Assembly (NCBI RefSeq): GCF_016858305.2
Contig: NZ_CP074436.1
Location: 1,384,001-1,448,000, forward strand
DNA: 64,000 bases
Direction of reading: 5' to 3'
Origin: Polaribacter sp. Q13
GTDB taxonomy: Bacteria > Bacteroidota > Bacteroidia > Flavobacteriales > Flavobacteriaceae
Part shown: positions 804-47,205 of the stretch, in pieces
Layout: each line of letters begins with the position of its first letter
Position numbering within the stretch: position 1 is the stretch's first letter
Program-made: the position numbers and the translations under genes
Notes under the pieces: generated by a model
What the model was told of the DNA's origin: nothing
The model's database searches: none
The model's input: only the letters and a program-made list of their open reading frames with translations

Positions 804-890
804 GGGCGTTCGAGCGGGCTTTCCGTACTCGCTTTTTTTCTGAAAAAGAAAAAAGAGCTCAAACAATTACTTCAATCCCTAACGCGGGCA
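804..890 (+). repeat. Left copy of an inverted interspersed repeat (GGGCGTT...TAACGCGGGCA)
   Basis: The element begins GGGCGTT, contains CGGGCTTT, and ends CAATCCCTAACGCGGGCA. A hairpin-forming CTTTTTTTCT / AAGAAAAAAG stretch lies in its middle. The same ends occur in reverse orientation at 1534-1632, so the two copies bracket the orphan gene between them. The inner ACTCGCTTTTTT and AAAAAAGAGCTCA segments recur downstream of uvrA at about 16680-16725. It has no coding potential. Confidence 0.6.
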
Positions 891-943
891 TATTTGTAAA
901 TCCTTTGTTTATTATAACAAGTTGTGCCTAATTAAAAAAACGA

Positions 944-42547: not shown

Positions 42548-43168
42548 TTAAATAGAGTTTAAAATGAGTATTTCTTTTTGGCCTAGAAGAAGTTTTTTGT
42601 TTTTTTCGAGTGTTTTTAATAGTCTAGAAATAACCTCTCTAGTTGTGCCCAATTCTCTTGCTAATTCTTGATGAGATTTCTTTACTATCGAATTATCTGC
42701 TTTTGAAATCAGGTAATCAAATAATCTATCTTTAAGTGGTTGAAAGGCTAAATTAGAATATTGATTAATCAGATAATTATAACTCTCTCGAAAGGTATTT
42801 GTTGTAAAAGTGTTCCAAGATTTATATTTATAATTCCAATCTTTAACAAACCTCACAGGTATATTTAAAATGGTGCATTCTTCTTCAGCGATAGCATTTA
42901 CAGTACTTTTACAATCTTCAAAACAAGCAGATAGAGACAAAGTACAGGTCTCCATATCGTTTAAATAATAAATAAGAATTTCACGTTCTTCATTTTCTTG
43001 ATAGACTCTTACTTTTCCACGTAAAACAATTTTTAATACTTTAATATATTGATTGTTTTTAATAATTAATTCACCCTTTTTATGTGTTGTTATATTTGAG
43101 TTTTTGCGAAGTTCATCTTGAAGTTCTTCTTCGGTTATTTGAAGGTGATTAATAAAATTATCTAACAT
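42548..43168 (-). CDS. Crp/Fnr family transcriptional regulator
   Basis: A 206-residue regulator with a cyclic-nucleotide-binding-fold domain (KKGELIIKNNQYIKVLKIVL, GKVRVYQENEEREIL) and a C-terminal winged helix (KKSHQELARELGTTREVISR, LLKTLEKN). The segment METCTLSLSACFEDCKSTV has three cysteines where related Bacteroidota regulators also have them, which could sense redox state or bind a metal. It precedes the SnoaL-like and VOC genes on the same strand and may control them. A palindromic element separates it from the gene upstream. Confidence 0.9.
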   Translation of the reverse strand: MLDNFINHLQITEEELQDELRKNSNITTHKKGELIIKNNQYIKVLKIVLRGKVRVYQENEEREILIYYLNDMETCTLSLSACFEDCKSTVNAIAEEECTILNIPVRFVKDWNYKYKSWNTFTTNTFRESYNYLINQYSNLAFQPLKDRLFDYLISKADNSIVKKSHQELARELGTTREVISRLLKTLEKNKKLLLGQKEILILNSI

Positions 43169-43194
43169 TTATTCTTACTGTTTAAATTGCATAC

Positions 43195-43328
43195 AAAACG
43201 GTTTGTATAAGGATAGTTGCGTAATCCAGTAACTAAATTACTAAAAAGCATGAACCTTTGGGAGATCCATAAGGATTTTTGTAAGTAGGCTAAAACCAAG
43301 CAATAAAACATACACGGCGTAGCTACTG
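43195..43328 (-). repeat. attC-like palindromic element after the metalloprotease-like gene
   Basis: On the minus strand it starts at the stop codon with GTAGCTACGCCGTGTATG, then TTTTATTGCTTGGTTTTAGC, and ends ACGCAACTATCCTTATACAA. The arms TGTATAAGGATAGTTGC and GCAATAAAACATACA pair imperfectly. The centre differs from the neighbouring elements and has only a weak hairpin. Confidence 0.55.
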
Positions 43329-44345
43329 GTATTTTTTCTTTAATTGTTCTATAATCTCCTTATATATTTGTTCAAATTCCATTTTATTATTATTTACATA
43401 TTTATCCAAATGTTCATATACGATTCTTGAGTTTTTTGGCTGATGATTAATTTCATCTTCTCCAACTTTTTGTCCATAATTCAGTTCCAATATTTTCGCG
43501 GTTATTCCGCCAACTATAATTTCGTCAATATCCTTGTATTTTTCTTTGAATTTATCTTGTTTTACTAAAGAATCTAATTCTTTGTCATAGTATTTACTGA
43601 ATAATTTGTCAGTATAAATATGACTGTTTTCGTGAATTACAATCCTTCTATAATCATCATTCCATTTTAGTTTTAATACTTTGATAGAATCATTTGGTTC
43701 ATCACACAGATATGTTATAAGAAATAACCTTTCATTTTCTGGGTTGTTTGTAAAGGTTATAGCCTTATTAGTAATTCTATTTAGTGGATCGAATAATATT
43801 TTAAGACTTGTTTTCTTTTTCGTTCTGTAAAATTTATTTAGTTTTTCTGTTATTCGATTAGATTTTATGGAATCCGTAAAAGGTTTAAAATTTACATTGT
43901 AGTCATTTTTGAAAGCAATTGTTTTTTTGAAATCAATCAATAGTTTTGATAGCGAATCAATGTTTTTACCATACCAACCAAATTGTTCAGAAAGTTCTTT
44001 TGTATTAAGATTGTCATTTGGTTTTAAATTTTCATCAAGGCAAAGCGCAATACTTGGTAAATCAGCATTCCATTCATCTCCATTTCCTATTTTTTGAACT
44101 AAAGGATGGCTGGTGTATTTTTTATAAGGCTCGAAATTTGTTTTATAAAATCCCGTTTTACAAGGTCTTAAATTGACATCAATACTATCTTCAAGTGATA
44201 AGAAGTAAGCAACCCTCAACAATTCTACTCTATCATCTATTAATATTGAAATAGAATTTTCAGTTATGTCCGTTTTAGGCTTTTCTTGATTGCAACTTAT
44301 AATCAAAAGGCTTAAAATTATTAATATGTACTGAATGTTTTTCAT
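43323..44345 (-). CDS. Lipoprotein with HExxH motif (putative metallopeptidase, DUF4932-like)
   Basis: About 340 residues from the ATG at 44345 (MKNIQYILIILSLLIISC), which gives a perfect lipoprotein signal. The open frame extends 39 codons further upstream, but that part reads through the repeat element and is not real. A zinc-binding HENSH motif lies near residue 248 (YRRIVIHENSHIYTDKLF), and a glutamate-rich segment follows. The layout recalls DUF4932-type predicted metallopeptidases, though I am not certain of the family. The protein would be anchored in the periplasm or on the surface. It lies between two palindromic elements. Confidence 0.65.
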   Translation of the reverse strand: MKNIQYILIILSLLIISCNQEKPKTDITENSISILIDDRVELLRVAYFLSLEDSIDVNLRPCKTGFYKTNFEPYKKYTSHPLVQKIGNGDEWNADLPSIALCLDENLKPNDNLNTKELSEQFGWYGKNIDSLSKLLIDFKKTIAFKNDYNVNFKPFTDSIKSNRITEKLNKFYRTKKKTSLKILFDPLNRITNKAITFTNNPENERLFLITYLCDEPNDSIKVLKLKWNDDYRRIVIHENSHIYTDKLFSKYYDKELDSLVKQDKFKEKYKDIDEIIVGGITAKILELNYGQKVGEDEINHQPKNSRIVYEHLDKYVNNNKMEFEQIYKEIIEQLKKKYQ

Positions 44346-44355
44346 ACTTGTAGCT

Positions 44356-44481
44356 AACGTTGTTGTATAAGCTTTGTTGCGTTGTTTAAGCAGTGAATTT
44401 AGTAAATAAAACACGAACGGCGAAATTCCGCAGGAATTCCCCAAGTGAGCTAAAAACAGCAATAAAGTTTATACGGCGTTG
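44356..44481 (-). repeat. 126-bp attC-like palindromic element, copy 1
   Basis: Identical to the copy at 46041-46166 except for one base (C instead of T in the last TATACGGCGTTG). The arms GTATAAGCTTTGTTGC and GCAATAAAGTTTATAC pair with two wobble positions, and the centre has AAATTCC-GCA-GGAATT. It begins 11 bp after the stop codon of the gene at 44492-45325 (minus strand). Confidence 0.7.
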
Positions 44482-44491
44482 TAAACAGGCA

Positions 44492-45325
44492 TTATTCATT
44501 TAATAATTCCTCAACTATTTTAATATCTTCTAAGTTCATTTCTTTAACACCTTTTTCGCTTAGAGTTTTAAATTCAGCAAACTCCTCCTCTATTTTCTTT
44601 ATTTTTTTTACATCTTTTTCGGATAAAATCTTTTCAAGATAGTAATCTGAGAAGTAAATATTTAGTCGTTCTGTAAGGCTTGGTACATTTTTCACTAAAT
44701 CGAAGTATTTTTTTAATTCGTTAGATGGATTAAAATAAACCGTTGATTTCGGGTTAATGAATCTATCTTTTTCCTGACTCCTTATTTTATAAACTACATT
44801 TGTTGAGTTAGTATATTTTAGAACTGAATAGCATTTTTCAGGTTTAGAAGAGGAAAATATACTAACTTTATATAATGTGTCATTTATTTTAAATCCACTT
44901 CTTAGGTAAGCTCCAGTTAAGAACGAGTGGGCTTTCTTCTTATCTAATTTCAACTTTTCTTTGTATAAAGATTTTTCATCAAAATTTTCCTTGAGTCCAT
45001 TTTCTATTAATTCAGAAAACATGTAATATTGACTTAAATTATCATCTCTGTCATTCGTGAAATTGGGACCTTTATCAATTCTTTTTATTATTATATAATC
45101 AATGCTGTCTTTTTCAATTTTTTTGTTCAAAAACTCAGCGATAATATCCTCTTTAAATAAATCTTCAAAAAAAACATCCACTTGATTGCCCTTGAATTCT
45201 CTATTTCCATATTCAAAGTAGCAATGATTTATTCCGTAAAGAAAGTATTCAAAATCTAACTCTTTATTTTGTGAGTGAATTATTATAGGAGTTATAAATA
45301 AAGAAAAGTAAAGAAGTATTTTCAT
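44492..45325 (-). CDS. Hypothetical secreted protein (cassette-like)
   Basis: About 277 residues from the ATG giving MKILLYFSLFITPIIIHSQ, a good signal peptide; a TTG five codons upstream is also in frame. The mature protein is charged and rich in lysine, aspartate and glutamate, with YLYGINHCYFEYGNREF-like aromatic content early on and a coiled-coil-like C-terminus (DVKKIKKIEEEFAEFK). No family recognised. Palindromic elements lie on both sides. The small size of the unit and absence of partners suggest a mobile single-gene module. Confidence 0.6.
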   Translation of the reverse strand: MKILLYFSLFITPIIIHSQNKELDFEYFLYGINHCYFEYGNREFKGNQVDVFFEDLFKEDIIAEFLNKKIEKDSIDYIIIKRIDKGPNFTNDRDDNLSQYYMFSELIENGLKENFDEKSLYKEKLKLDKKKAHSFLTGAYLRSGFKINDTLYKVSIFSSSKPEKCYSVLKYTNSTNVVYKIRSQEKDRFINPKSTVYFNPSNELKKYFDLVKNVPSLTERLNIYFSDYYLEKILSEKDVKKIKKIEEEFAEFKTLSEKGVKEMNLEDIKIVEELLNE

Positions 45326-45423
45326 TTTGTTTTTATTCAAAAGTACATTTAAGTTGAAATTATTAAAAGACTAAATGAGTAAACTGCCTTTTTGATTGAG
45401 TGAATTATTTTTTTGCTTGTGTA

Positions 45424-45552
45424 CAACGCTGTTGTATAAGCTTTGTTGCGGGTTTGTATGCGAGGATTTTCCGAAGGAAAATCAGACATTACAAACACGT
45501 AACGACCTTATATTAAGCACTAAATCGCAATTATTTTTAAACGGTCTTGTAA
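45424..45552 (-). repeat. attC-like palindromic element with diverged centre
   Basis: The plus-strand left arm ACAACGCTGTTGTATAAGC then TTTGTTGCGG matches the 126-bp copies. The right arm is diverged (CGCAATTATTTTTAAACGGT). The centre has a perfect hairpin at 45465-45483 (GATTTTCC, GAA, GGAAAATC), different in sequence from the other copies. It starts about 11 bp after the stop codon of the lipocalin-like gene. Confidence 0.6.
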
Positions 45553-45562
45553 AACTTTTTTT

Positions 45563-46018
45563 TTATTCAATTTTTCTAAATGTTCTTGAATCTGTTTGTG
45601 TGGCACCATTATATATTTCTTCAAAAGTTATTTTCAGATCTCCGTTTTCGAAAGTTATTATTGGTTCCGCAGTTTCTCCATCTAAACTAAATTGATATAC
45701 ATTTTCGTTTTTTGTCCACGTATATTCTATAGTTTTACTCAATTTACATCCATCATATTCAGAGGAACTAGTGTCATCAGGAAATAAGAAATCAGGATCG
45801 TAATCTTCTTCTAATACAATATTATTAGATTTAAATTCTATAGTTTCCATAAGTTCACATTCATCGAGATTTTCATCATTTACACCATCAAATGCTCTTG
45901 CAATCTGTACCCATTTACCAATAACGGCATCATTAGACATTTCATCACTTGGGCTGTCATCATTATCACATGAAATTAGAAGAAAAGAAGTTAGAATTAA
46001 TAAAATTAGATTTTTCAT
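45563..46018 (-). CDS. Lipocalin-like lipoprotein
   Basis: A 151-residue protein with a lipoprotein signal (LILLILTSFLLISC) followed by an acidic linker DNDDSPSDE. The rest is a small beta barrel of the Bacteroidota lipocalin-like type: IGKWVQIARAFDG at the start, a strand CELMETIEFKSNNIVL, and YTWTKNENVYQFSLDG near the end. Two cysteines (in DECEL and DGCKL) may form a disulfide. It probably binds small hydrophobic ligands in the periplasm or on the surface; this is inference. Flanked on both sides by palindromic elements. Confidence 0.7.
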   Translation of the reverse strand: MKNLILLILTSFLLISCDNDDSPSDEMSNDAVIGKWVQIARAFDGVNDENLDECELMETIEFKSNNIVLEEDYDPDFLFPDDTSSSEYDGCKLSKTIEYTWTKNENVYQFSLDGETAEPIITFENGDLKITFEEIYNGATQTDSRTFRKIE

Positions 46019-46040
46019 AGTTTTTTTGTTAATGTTTTAC

Positions 46041-46166
46041 AACGTTGTTGTATAAGCTTTGTTGCGTTGTTTAAGCAGTGAATTTAGTAAATAAAACACG
46101 AACGGCGAAATTCCGCAGGAATTCCCCAAGTGAGCTAAAAACAGCAATAAAGTTTATACGGTGTTG
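46041..46166 (-). repeat. 126-bp attC-like palindromic element, copy 2
   Basis: 125 of 126 bases equal the copy at 44356-44481. It begins 11 bp after the stop codon of the membrane-protein gene at 46177-46608, the same distance as for copy 1. The genes upstream of the two copies are unrelated, so the element is not simply part of a duplicated gene. Confidence 0.7.
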
Positions 46167-46176
46167 GCAGTAGTTT

Positions 46177-46608
46177 TTATTTATCTGTTTTGTTTTTTCC
46201 ATTCTTTATATGATTTTCAAGAATTTCCATTCCAGTTTTTAGCATTCCAATCAATCCAACTCCAAAAATTATGATTCCAAATGATACTTCTTTTATGTTT
46301 TTATTATCTGAAATAAAATATCCAAAAATTCCAAACACAAAAATTAAAAGAGTTATTATAATAAGGTAACGAATGAATATTTTTCCAAGTTTAGGGTTTT
46401 CCCAAATCTTTTTATCAAATTTTAGAGAAACCTTTTTTGTGTCTTGAAGAGAGGCAAAACTAATTGCAAGCCCCATAAAAATCAGCATATTATTAAGGGC
46501 TTGAAGATTAAATCCATTAGAGTTTGACTTAAATGTAAAATATAAACCACCAACTAAAAATGGGTATTGTAAATAACTTAAATAATGAAAGAAAAGTTTA
46601 TTGTTCAT
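46177..46608 (-). CDS. Hypothetical four-helix membrane protein (cassette-like)
   Basis: A 143-residue protein with four predicted transmembrane segments (YPFLVGGLYFTF, LIFMGLAISFASL, YLIIITLLIFVFGIFGYFI and FGIIIFGVGLIGMLKTGMEI) and a basic C-terminal tail. No recognised family or catalytic motif. It lies between the outermost palindromic element at 46629-46697 and the 126-bp copy 2, so it is the first gene of the array as read on the minus strand. Confidence 0.6.
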   Translation of the reverse strand: MNNKLFFHYLSYLQYPFLVGGLYFTFKSNSNGFNLQALNNMLIFMGLAISFASLQDTKKVSLKFDKKIWENPKLGKIFIRYLIIITLLIFVFGIFGYFISDNKNIKEVSFGIIIFGVGLIGMLKTGMEILENHIKNGKNKTDK

Positions 46609-46628
46609 TTATTAATTTCTCATTTAGA

Positions 46629-46697
46629 TTTGTTGCGTTAAGTTATTGAATGGAGGACTAATATAGCATTTTTTAATACACGGTGTTGTGCTTAGTT
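46629..46697 (-). repeat. Outermost attC-like element of the array
   Basis: On the minus strand it starts CTAAGCACAACACCGTGTAT, continues TAAAAAATGC and ends TTAACGCAACAAATC about 20 bp before the start codon of the membrane-protein gene. The first 20 bases are nearly the same as in the isolated element at 1401 (TAGGCACAACACCGTGTATA). It is shorter than the 126-bp copies and has no good central hairpin. No gene precedes it before the tRNA. Confidence 0.5.
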
Positions 46698-46902
46698 TTT
46701 TTTTAACATCCATGACAACTCACCATTGGCATAAATAATATATCAATACCAAAAGTTGTGGATTATAATAAAAAAGTATTTTATAGAAACTTAATTAAAA
46801 GGAAATAAAAAGATTAAGGATCTAAAAGTAGAGTAGAATTCGTAAAAAAATAGGCAAAGAAACTTAATTCTTTGAATTTAAATACATTGTTAAATTAAAT
46901 TG

Positions 46903-46986
46903 TGCGCACGAGAAGATTCGAACTTCCACGTTCTTGCGAACACAGCCCCCTCAAGGCTGCGCGTCTACCAATTTCGCCACGTGCGC
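46903..46986 (-). tRNA. tRNA-Leu (anticodon GAG)
   Basis: The minus strand folds as a class II tRNA of 84 bases: acceptor GCGCACG pairing with CGTGCGC, D-arm GGCGAAATTGGTAGACGC, anticodon stem CAGCC / GGCTG with loop TTGAGGG (anticodon GAG), a variable arm GTTCGCAAGAAC and T-arm GGAAGTTCGAATCTTC. Discriminator A; CCA is not encoded. Its 3' end faces the accessory region at 34.9-46.7 kb. Confidence 0.95.
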
Positions 46987-47000
46987 ATTTGTATAAAGCA

Positions 47001-47029
47001 AAAATGTTAAGCATATTGCTTAACATTTT
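47001..47029. terminator. Hairpin between the two tRNA genes
   Basis: AAAATGTTAAGCA / TGCTTAACATTTT, a 13-bp stem with a three-base loop. It lies after tRNA-Lys and before tRNA-Leu in the direction of transcription, so it may terminate the first or act as a processing site. Confidence 0.5.
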
Positions 47030-47035
47030 TATTTG

Positions 47036-47108
47036 TGACCGGGCTGGGGCTCGAACCCAGGACCCTCTCCTTAAAAGGGAGATGCTCTACCAACTGAGCT
47101 ACCAGGTC
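47036..47108 (-). tRNA. tRNA-Lys (anticodon UUU)
   Basis: A 73-base tRNA on the minus strand: acceptor GACCTGG with CCCGGTC, D-arm AGCTCAGTTGGTAGAGC, anticodon stem TCTCC / GGAGA with loop CTTTTAA (anticodon TTT), T-arm CTGGGTTCGAGCCCCAG, discriminator A. CCA is not encoded. Confidence 0.95.
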
Positions 47109-47205
47109 TATTTTGTAAACCGGTTGCAAATATACAATCAAACATTGGAATTATAACCATTAAAATGAAAAAAAATTATAGATATTTGCATAAAAATAAA
47201 AATCA

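Follow-up and report, generated by a model that had tools for sequence, protein, structure and literature searches.

A probable integron-like single-gene cassette system with XerA-like recombinases in Polaribacter sp. Q13 and other Bacteroidota

Introduction

A 64,000-nucleotide stretch of the single-contig, 4.42 Mb genome of Polaribacter sp. Q13 (genome positions 1384001-1448000; hereafter the window) carries four minus-strand genes, each followed by a palindromic element resembling the attC site of integron cassettes, and an earlier note on this stretch described the group as an array without an integrase. The locus raises the question of whether these genes are mobile cassettes and, if so, which enzyme could have moved them. 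The answer favoured here, with a probability of roughly 85%, is that they belong to an integron-like single-gene cassette system of Bacteroidota, which has attC-like elements and is run by XerA-like recombinases that are not IntI, the group in the window being a decaying satellite. This answer rests on what could be read from sequence, namely cassette boundaries, complementarity, predicted folding, orientation, the positions of the recombinase and of an attI-like site, duplication, and absence from congeners.

Results

attC-like elements in the window and in the genome

The features concerned are as follows (window positions).
43197-43321, minus: attC-like element 3' of the HExxH lipoprotein gene; AAC box changed to TAC, decayed in appearance
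43323-44345, minus: cassette gene of 340 amino acids, lipoprotein-like, HENSH (HExxH) motif; no Pfam match
44356-44480, minus: attC-like element with intact AAC box
44492-45325, minus: cassette gene, secreted hypothetical protein; no Pfam match
45425-45548, minus: attC-like element; AAC box altered to AAG
45563-46018, minus: cassette gene, lipoprotein of 151 amino acids with a Lipocalin_4 domain (PF13648)
46041-46165, minus: attC-like element, near-identical to the one at 44356
46177-46608, minus: gene of the first cassette in the group, 143 amino acids; no Pfam match and no GTT head visible before the gene
about 46629-46687, minus: attC-like element, truncated, the one of the group nearest the tRNA genes
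46903-47108, minus: tRNA-Leu(GAG) and tRNA-Lys(TTT), conserved flank
921-1520, plus: lone complete cassette, with head GTTGTGCCTA at 921, gene at 944-1399 and a tail complementary to the head
1408-1523, plus: attC-like element of the lone cassette

R1, a covariance model built from 30 copies of the element in the Q13 genome, gave 71 matches in the whole genome at E <= 0.01. The elements of the window were recovered at genome 1427197, 1428356, 1429425 and 1430041 (minus strand) and at 1385408 (plus strand), which confirmed the sites listed in the earlier note; the further copy listed at 46629 is present in truncated form and was unreported by R1 at that threshold. With a sequence profile, 58 copies were counted at E <= 1e-3 over 204 kb of sequence: five in the window (the lone copy and four on the minus strand), another four near 1.10 Mb, and 49 on the plus strand between genome 1459146 and 1537797. 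These 49 form two blocks (20 and 29 copies) about 35 kb apart, and this two-block array begins 11 kb beyond the window end. The genome contains the exact 13-mer ACACCGTATAAAC 16 times and its backwards control 0 times. The abundance of the element is far above chance. No Rfam match overlapped any element in window 42800-47200, two sub-threshold chance matches lying elsewhere; a known RNA family, which the earlier note had named as a reading that could overturn its own, is thus not indicated there.

The gene stops adjoin the elements as reported earlier, with a measured spacing of 1-14 bases for four genes. The product described as a lipocalin-like lipoprotein was assigned to Lipocalin_4 by Pfam, and the HExxH gene exists, although its start is more likely the ATG at 44345 (340 amino acids) than the one giving the 379 amino acids first proposed.

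Cassette ends, folding and genes

Array elements typically end in ...AACAAC|GTT, and GTT and AAC were used to locate cassette ends. The head of a cassette (the bases after GTT) is the reverse complement of its tail, i.e., of the bases before the AAC that opens the next element, and because of this complementarity head and tail can be taken as the two ends of one cassette. Counting only element pairs up to 4 kb apart, here and in all head/tail counts below, an unbroken run of at least 9 complementary bases was found in 42 of 53 Q13 cassettes compared with 2.2% of 2756 mismatched pairs, and the summed matches reached 430, the highest sum in 2000 permutations being 257. Position 11 matched in none of the 53 cassettes, while positions 12-14 exceeded the cross-pair level. 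Loci of the main recombinase branch in other genomes (see below) gave such runs in 59 of 69 cassettes versus 0.8% of 4518 cross pairs, with one cassette lacking GTT/AAC left out; at position 11, A stood opposite C in 54 of these 69, and the two bases were equal in three. The canonical R' box GTTRRRY was present in only 3 of 57 heads, and a GTTR start was present in 54 of 57.

The inner boxes form a 13-pair stem in which 9 of 13 pairs show changes on both sides, indicating covariation. Stem cells were paired in 95.6% of cases, compared with 78.6% in shuffles and 29-42% with slid partners; none of 500 shuffles reached this pairing, and 5 of 500 did so for the pair types. An unpaired spacer of three by six bases separates the AAC/GTT stem from the inner stem. 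When the circular-form site was folded with DNA parameters, the bottom strand was predicted to be more stable in 52 of 52 Q13 cassettes, and its circular form was more stable than the in-array form in 50 of 52. The longest open reading frame (ORF), where it reached 100 amino acids, lay on the strand of the element in 42 of 42 Q13 cassettes, and 10 of 52 cassettes had no ORF of that length.

Copies of cassettes also occur at separate positions of the array. The cassettes at genome 1459771 and 1518977 are 95% identical over the whole cassette, and those at 1530478 and 1532320 are 99.8% identical over 465 of 469 bases; the upstream neighbours differ in both pairs, and the common limits of the duplicates fall at GTT. 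The cassette at 1107025 shares 79% identity, from the first base through the tail, with one in another genome (G014). The integron-like layout proposed from the window alone has strong support from cassette-specific complementary ends, a covarying hairpin, an asymmetric unpaired spacer and genes on one strand, and it is further backed by duplicated cassettes with matching limits and by the attI-like site described below.

Three cassettes (genome 1468344, 1530478 and 1532320) have a longest ORF below 50 amino acids and a common head, GTTGCAAGTAATAGCGG. Such cassettes may carry promoters or RNAs.

Recombinases of the main branch

Among nine single-contig genomes bearing the element, eight encoded a distinct tyrosine recombinase (open frames of 376-450 amino acids) upstream of and co-directional with the elements. 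In genome G087 the nearest strong element lies several kb from the recombinase, and no such intact recombinase was found in genome G071 or in that of Q13. An alignment of nine recombinases (A2) was used as the query to retrieve 80 named loci, which are the best 80 of at least 551 relatives and belong mostly to Flavobacteriaceae. Most recombinases at these loci are 344-404 amino acids long, and 4 of the 80 frames are interrupted. R1, built from the Q13 genome only, placed 81 of 81 matches downstream on the recombinase strand (as read from the table), and a broader covariance model (R2) placed 114 of 114 matches there at E <= 0.01, with 0 in 445 kb of upstream sequence. Ten of the 124 R2 matches (E 0.01 to 0.1) were left out of this count; all of them are also downstream on the same strand. 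Loci with an element numbered 34 of 37 where at least 2 kb of downstream sequence was available, 6 of 12 for 1-2 kb, 4 of 11 for 0.5-1 kb, and 0 of 20 for shorter stretches.

SAM-like and catalytic domains were identified by Pfam in 46 of 46 main-branch members. Most members carry about 100 additional N-terminal residues, for which no firm Pfam or solved-structure match was obtained (weak HARP in 2/46 and DUF5710 in 4/46 at E <= 0.1). Among solved structures, the best sequence match was XerA (5hxy) when one member was compared and an XerC-like protein (4a8e) when the profile was used. Against NF040815, a XerA-like model with a 220-bit cut-off, the nine recombinases scored 201-235 bits, 6 of 9 being above it.

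In the Q13 genome, a C-terminal recombinase fragment precedes the first array element (genome 1458429-1458571, two frames; E 3.8e-11 against a Polaribacter member). The Q13 array lacks an integrase because its copy has decayed to this fragment, while relatives keep the recombinase at the array head; the absence of an integrase stated in the earlier note therefore holds for this genome and not for its relatives. Two of the four AAC boxes in the window group have changed (to AAG and TAC), and since the tRNA-proximal element is also truncated, the group is read as a partly decayed satellite beside tRNA-Leu.

A phage-type tyrosine recombinase upstream of the Q13 array (open frame of 459-462 amino acids) was considered as the integrase and rejected, as it scores 42 bits to PF00589 and shares a block with genes for an AAA ATPase and a DUF6371 protein. 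This block precedes the decayed recombinase and the array start and resembles a mobile element.
Genome 1453450-1458386 (L010 5450-10386): mobile-element-like block

The attI-like site

The attI-like site was located by seeking a head complementary to the tail of the first cassette, and ATATAAC was not used in placing it. Such a head was found within 170 bp of the recombinase stop codon at 46 of 55 loci; the corresponding site of Q13 is at genome 1458694. The motif TAnnTTTG, the -7 promoter box of Bacteroidota, occurred in 13 of 46 attI-like regions compared with a shuffle mean of 1.6, nine of them at -21/-22. By position, and in part by sequence, the site appears attI-like.

Recombinases of the second branch

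A second branch was defined as 21 recombinase matches that begin late in the query (at about residue 88 or later), leaving out late-start matches in G089 and G125 and fragments in G086, G043, G018 and G080. Some of these are frames of about 280 amino acids without the N-terminal part, and others have an N-terminal part unlike the profile. R2 elements were present at 14 of the 21 loci, where all 41 elements are oriented away from the recombinase; the gene is divergent from the array at nine loci and co-directional at five. Head/tail runs of at least 9 were found in 19 of 25 second-branch cassettes versus 4 of 546 cross pairs, and a head of the first cassette was found at 11 of 14 loci.

The late-start recombinases were also considered as companions of IS91 transposases, as in a pair on a Chryseobacterium plasmid. 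This reading was rejected, given that 14 of 21 sit at arrays, and it was likewise unsupported by the tree, in which they do not group with the plasmid companion.

Distribution and comparison with congeners

Of 149 family genomes, covering 148 genera, 129 (128 genera) carried elements, with per-genome counts of at least 23 at the upper end. R2 at E <= 1e-5 found elements in 88 of 247 genomes across the phylum, where single weak matches may include chance. Recombinase presence in the 149 genomes was scored as a match starting at query residue 31 or before, read by hand from the match list. A main-branch match, N-terminal part included, was present in 78 of the 149 genomes, divided into 76 of the 129 with elements and 2 of the 20 without (p = 4.8e-5, a value for species that are not independent). 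Among the checks proposed in the earlier note, the covariance-model search was made in the Q13 genome and its relatives, and a recombinase was found beside arrays.

That note had also named elements fixed at orthologous places as evidence against mobility, and this was not seen in congeners. All 14 congeners compared cease to align at the 3' end of tRNA-Leu(GAG) (window 46890-46915), which suggests that this end is a general insertion hot spot; two of these 14 regions end early at contig ends (L145, L153). R2 found no element near tRNA-Leu in the 14, and the sequence profile gave one weak opposite-strand element in G150 (36.9 bits) that R2 did not see. At the other flank of the window group, homology breaks off directly upstream of a Crp-like gene in all three congeners compared, and no elements occur there. 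At the place of the lone cassette (921-1520), upstream of the fumarase-like gene, none of 10 congeners yielded an element. Seven of the 10 can be aligned on both sides of the site, and in two of these seven only about 11 bases separate the flanks. The insert at this site exceeds the cassette in length, since flanking repeat sequence is missing there as well.

Inverted copies of an intergenic repeat, CAATCCCTAACGCGGGC, flank the lone cassette (window 871-920 and 1524-1560), and sequence related to this repeat remains at the site in one congener (L161).

Relation to integrons and weighing of explanations

The array of an ordinary integron of the IntI family, or a cluster of attC sites lacking integron-integrases (CALIN) left by one, would explain much of the anatomy. 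In the available part of one source (PMC2727003), integron attC sites have conserved AAC and GTT with complementarity reaching 9-11 bases, as is also the case here. Single-gene cassettes in one orientation, the unpaired asymmetric spacer, the variable terminal hairpin, the bottom strand predicted to be more stable, and an attI-like site adjoining the recombinase gene are further points of likeness. An integrase gene divergent from its array is the usual integron arrangement, and it was found at the nine second-branch loci mentioned above. Moreover, the NCBI name of NF040815, the model passed by six of the nine recombinases, is 'site-specific tyrosine recombinase/integron integrase', and the IntI insertion is described as 'not fully conserved' in the integron-like subgroup of one classification (PMC8138268, available part). 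However, the enzymes themselves lack this insertion: more than 90% of 72 recombinases (a comparison and tree limited to proteins of 330-420 amino acids with no internal stops) have nothing that corresponds to IntI1 residues 201-204, 210-217 and 222-253, the same holds for residues 208-250 in more than 90% of the 21 second-branch members, and the alignment to the solved IntI4 breaks at that very site. The IntI model TIGR02249 scored 183-213 bits, in two stretches, for nine of nine recombinases, below its cut-off of 265, and exceeded the cut-off in 0 of 149 family genomes, a search in which the control was likewise silent. Integrons further differ in that the recombinases here mostly have extra N-terminal residues, the main-branch gene is directed toward the array and has the attI-like site at its 3' end, heads seldom fit GTTRRRY, and a conserved mismatch, mostly A opposite C, lies 11 bases from the core. 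An ordinary integron is therefore considered very unlikely. The earlier alternative of a divergent integron lineage or a different system comes out in between, since the predicted working is integron-like, the recombinases lack the IntI insertion, and the nine scanned fall below the IntI cut-off.

Movement of the cassettes by the host XerC/XerD, with the dedicated enzyme dispensable, is suggested by the Xer-like catalytic domain and by the large array that Q13 retains without an intact dedicated enzyme. Although the catalytic core is shared with Xer and XerA recombinases, the enzymes here are linked to cassette arrays and mostly have about 100 added N-terminal residues; the linkage of recombinase, attI-like site and array, and the altered cassette ends in the window, which fit the loss of a dedicated enzyme, make this explanation highly improbable. 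To a similar degree we doubt a transposon or miniature inverted-repeat transposable element (MITE)-like family moved by another enzyme, with the tyrosine recombinase as a passenger. Elements are also scattered outside arrays, and seven element-rich genomes have no recombinase match at E <= 1e-60; nevertheless, end repeats would then be common to all copies, whereas here they are cassette-specific, and the recombinase heads the array at 34 of 37 testable loci, with all second-branch elements pointing away from it. Least credible are fixed, non-mobile structured elements downstream of genes, such as terminators or an RNA family. Elements that fold close behind stop codons would suit this, but a terminator leaves unexplained the complementarity that joins cassette ends hundreds of bp apart, and the elements are absent at corresponding places of congeners and have no Rfam match.

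Several observations weigh against an integron-like system run by XerA-like recombinases. A recombinase match including the N-terminal part was missing in 53 of 129 element-bearing genomes, 15 of which have at least 15 elements; eight of these 15 have a late-start match, which adjoins elements in seven of the eight, and the other seven, Q13 included, are the genomes without any match noted above. At the named loci, 36 of 80 were without an element (44 with one), most of them having little downstream sequence, and R2 was built partly from the same loci that were searched with it. The short second-branch members show that the N-terminal part is not essential, and ATATAAC directly precedes GTT in only about 21 of 55 attI-like sites. 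The deep branches of the tree, which was quickly built, are poorly supported, and IntI1 groups there with some second-branch members at low support.

Proposed working and significance

In the proposed system, a tyrosine recombinase with a XerA-like catalytic part is encoded at the array head, with the attI-like site between the gene and the first cassette. A circular cassette would present a folded single strand, probably the bottom one, as the putative substrate, with a stem made of AAC/GTT, about seven cassette-specific paired bases and the conserved inner boxes. The putative partner of the folded site would be either the attI-like site or a second attC-like site, to which the recombinase would link it, presumably at G/TT.

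We lean towards the broader view that Bacteroidota own a widespread integron class, anciently separate from or convergent with the IntI class, that moves single genes between genera. Its XerA-like recombinases would read folded single-stranded sites without the IntI insertion, in one branch probably with the aid of an N-terminal domain peculiar to it, and the class would escape surveys in which IntI is required. If true, this would be a large route, so far unrecognised, by which single genes are exchanged, together with a store of genes that are mostly unknown, and it would make testable how a tyrosine recombinase uses folded single strands without that insertion.

In the available part of the IntegronFinder 2.0 paper (PMC9024848), Salinibacter ruber M1 has the only complete integron named in Bacteroidetes proper, and 'flavobact' does not occur in that text, in contrast to the elements found here in 129 of 149 family genomes. 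The Salinibacter integron shares the phylum and was called by IntI and attC profiles. Integron prevalence in Bacteroidota varies among the accessible parts of published surveys: intI is listed for the Bacteroidetes/Chlorobi group in the part of a 2008 survey at hand, and the part of a paper on archaeal integrons at hand mentions integrons in Bacteroidota and requires the additional domain of IntI. The portion of a 2012 recombinase survey that was examined holds nothing of such a system, and no recognised description of one was found in the open-access literature, preprints and subscription papers being outside the scope of the search. Polaribacter phage P12002L, whose host group is shared with the elements here, carries attC sites, one of two tested being recombined by IntI1 according to the accessible part of the report (PMC9892861). 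These sites were considered as the same type and rejected, as R2 gave no significant match in the phage (best E 0.87).

Other observations

A recombinase related to those described (38% identity), with no R2 element nearby, is encoded on a Chryseobacterium oryzae plasmid (L131 5986-7659) and is followed by a VOC-family gene. Further, an insertion-like unit of 1.3 kb, 75-80% identical across genera, starts about 20 bases after GTT and may prefer attC-like sites as targets. It was seen at the following places.
Genome 1104799 cassette: 1.3 kb insertion-like unit
L029 636-1947 and 5657-6969: 1.3 kb insertion-like unit
L034 1-739: 1.3 kb insertion-like unit

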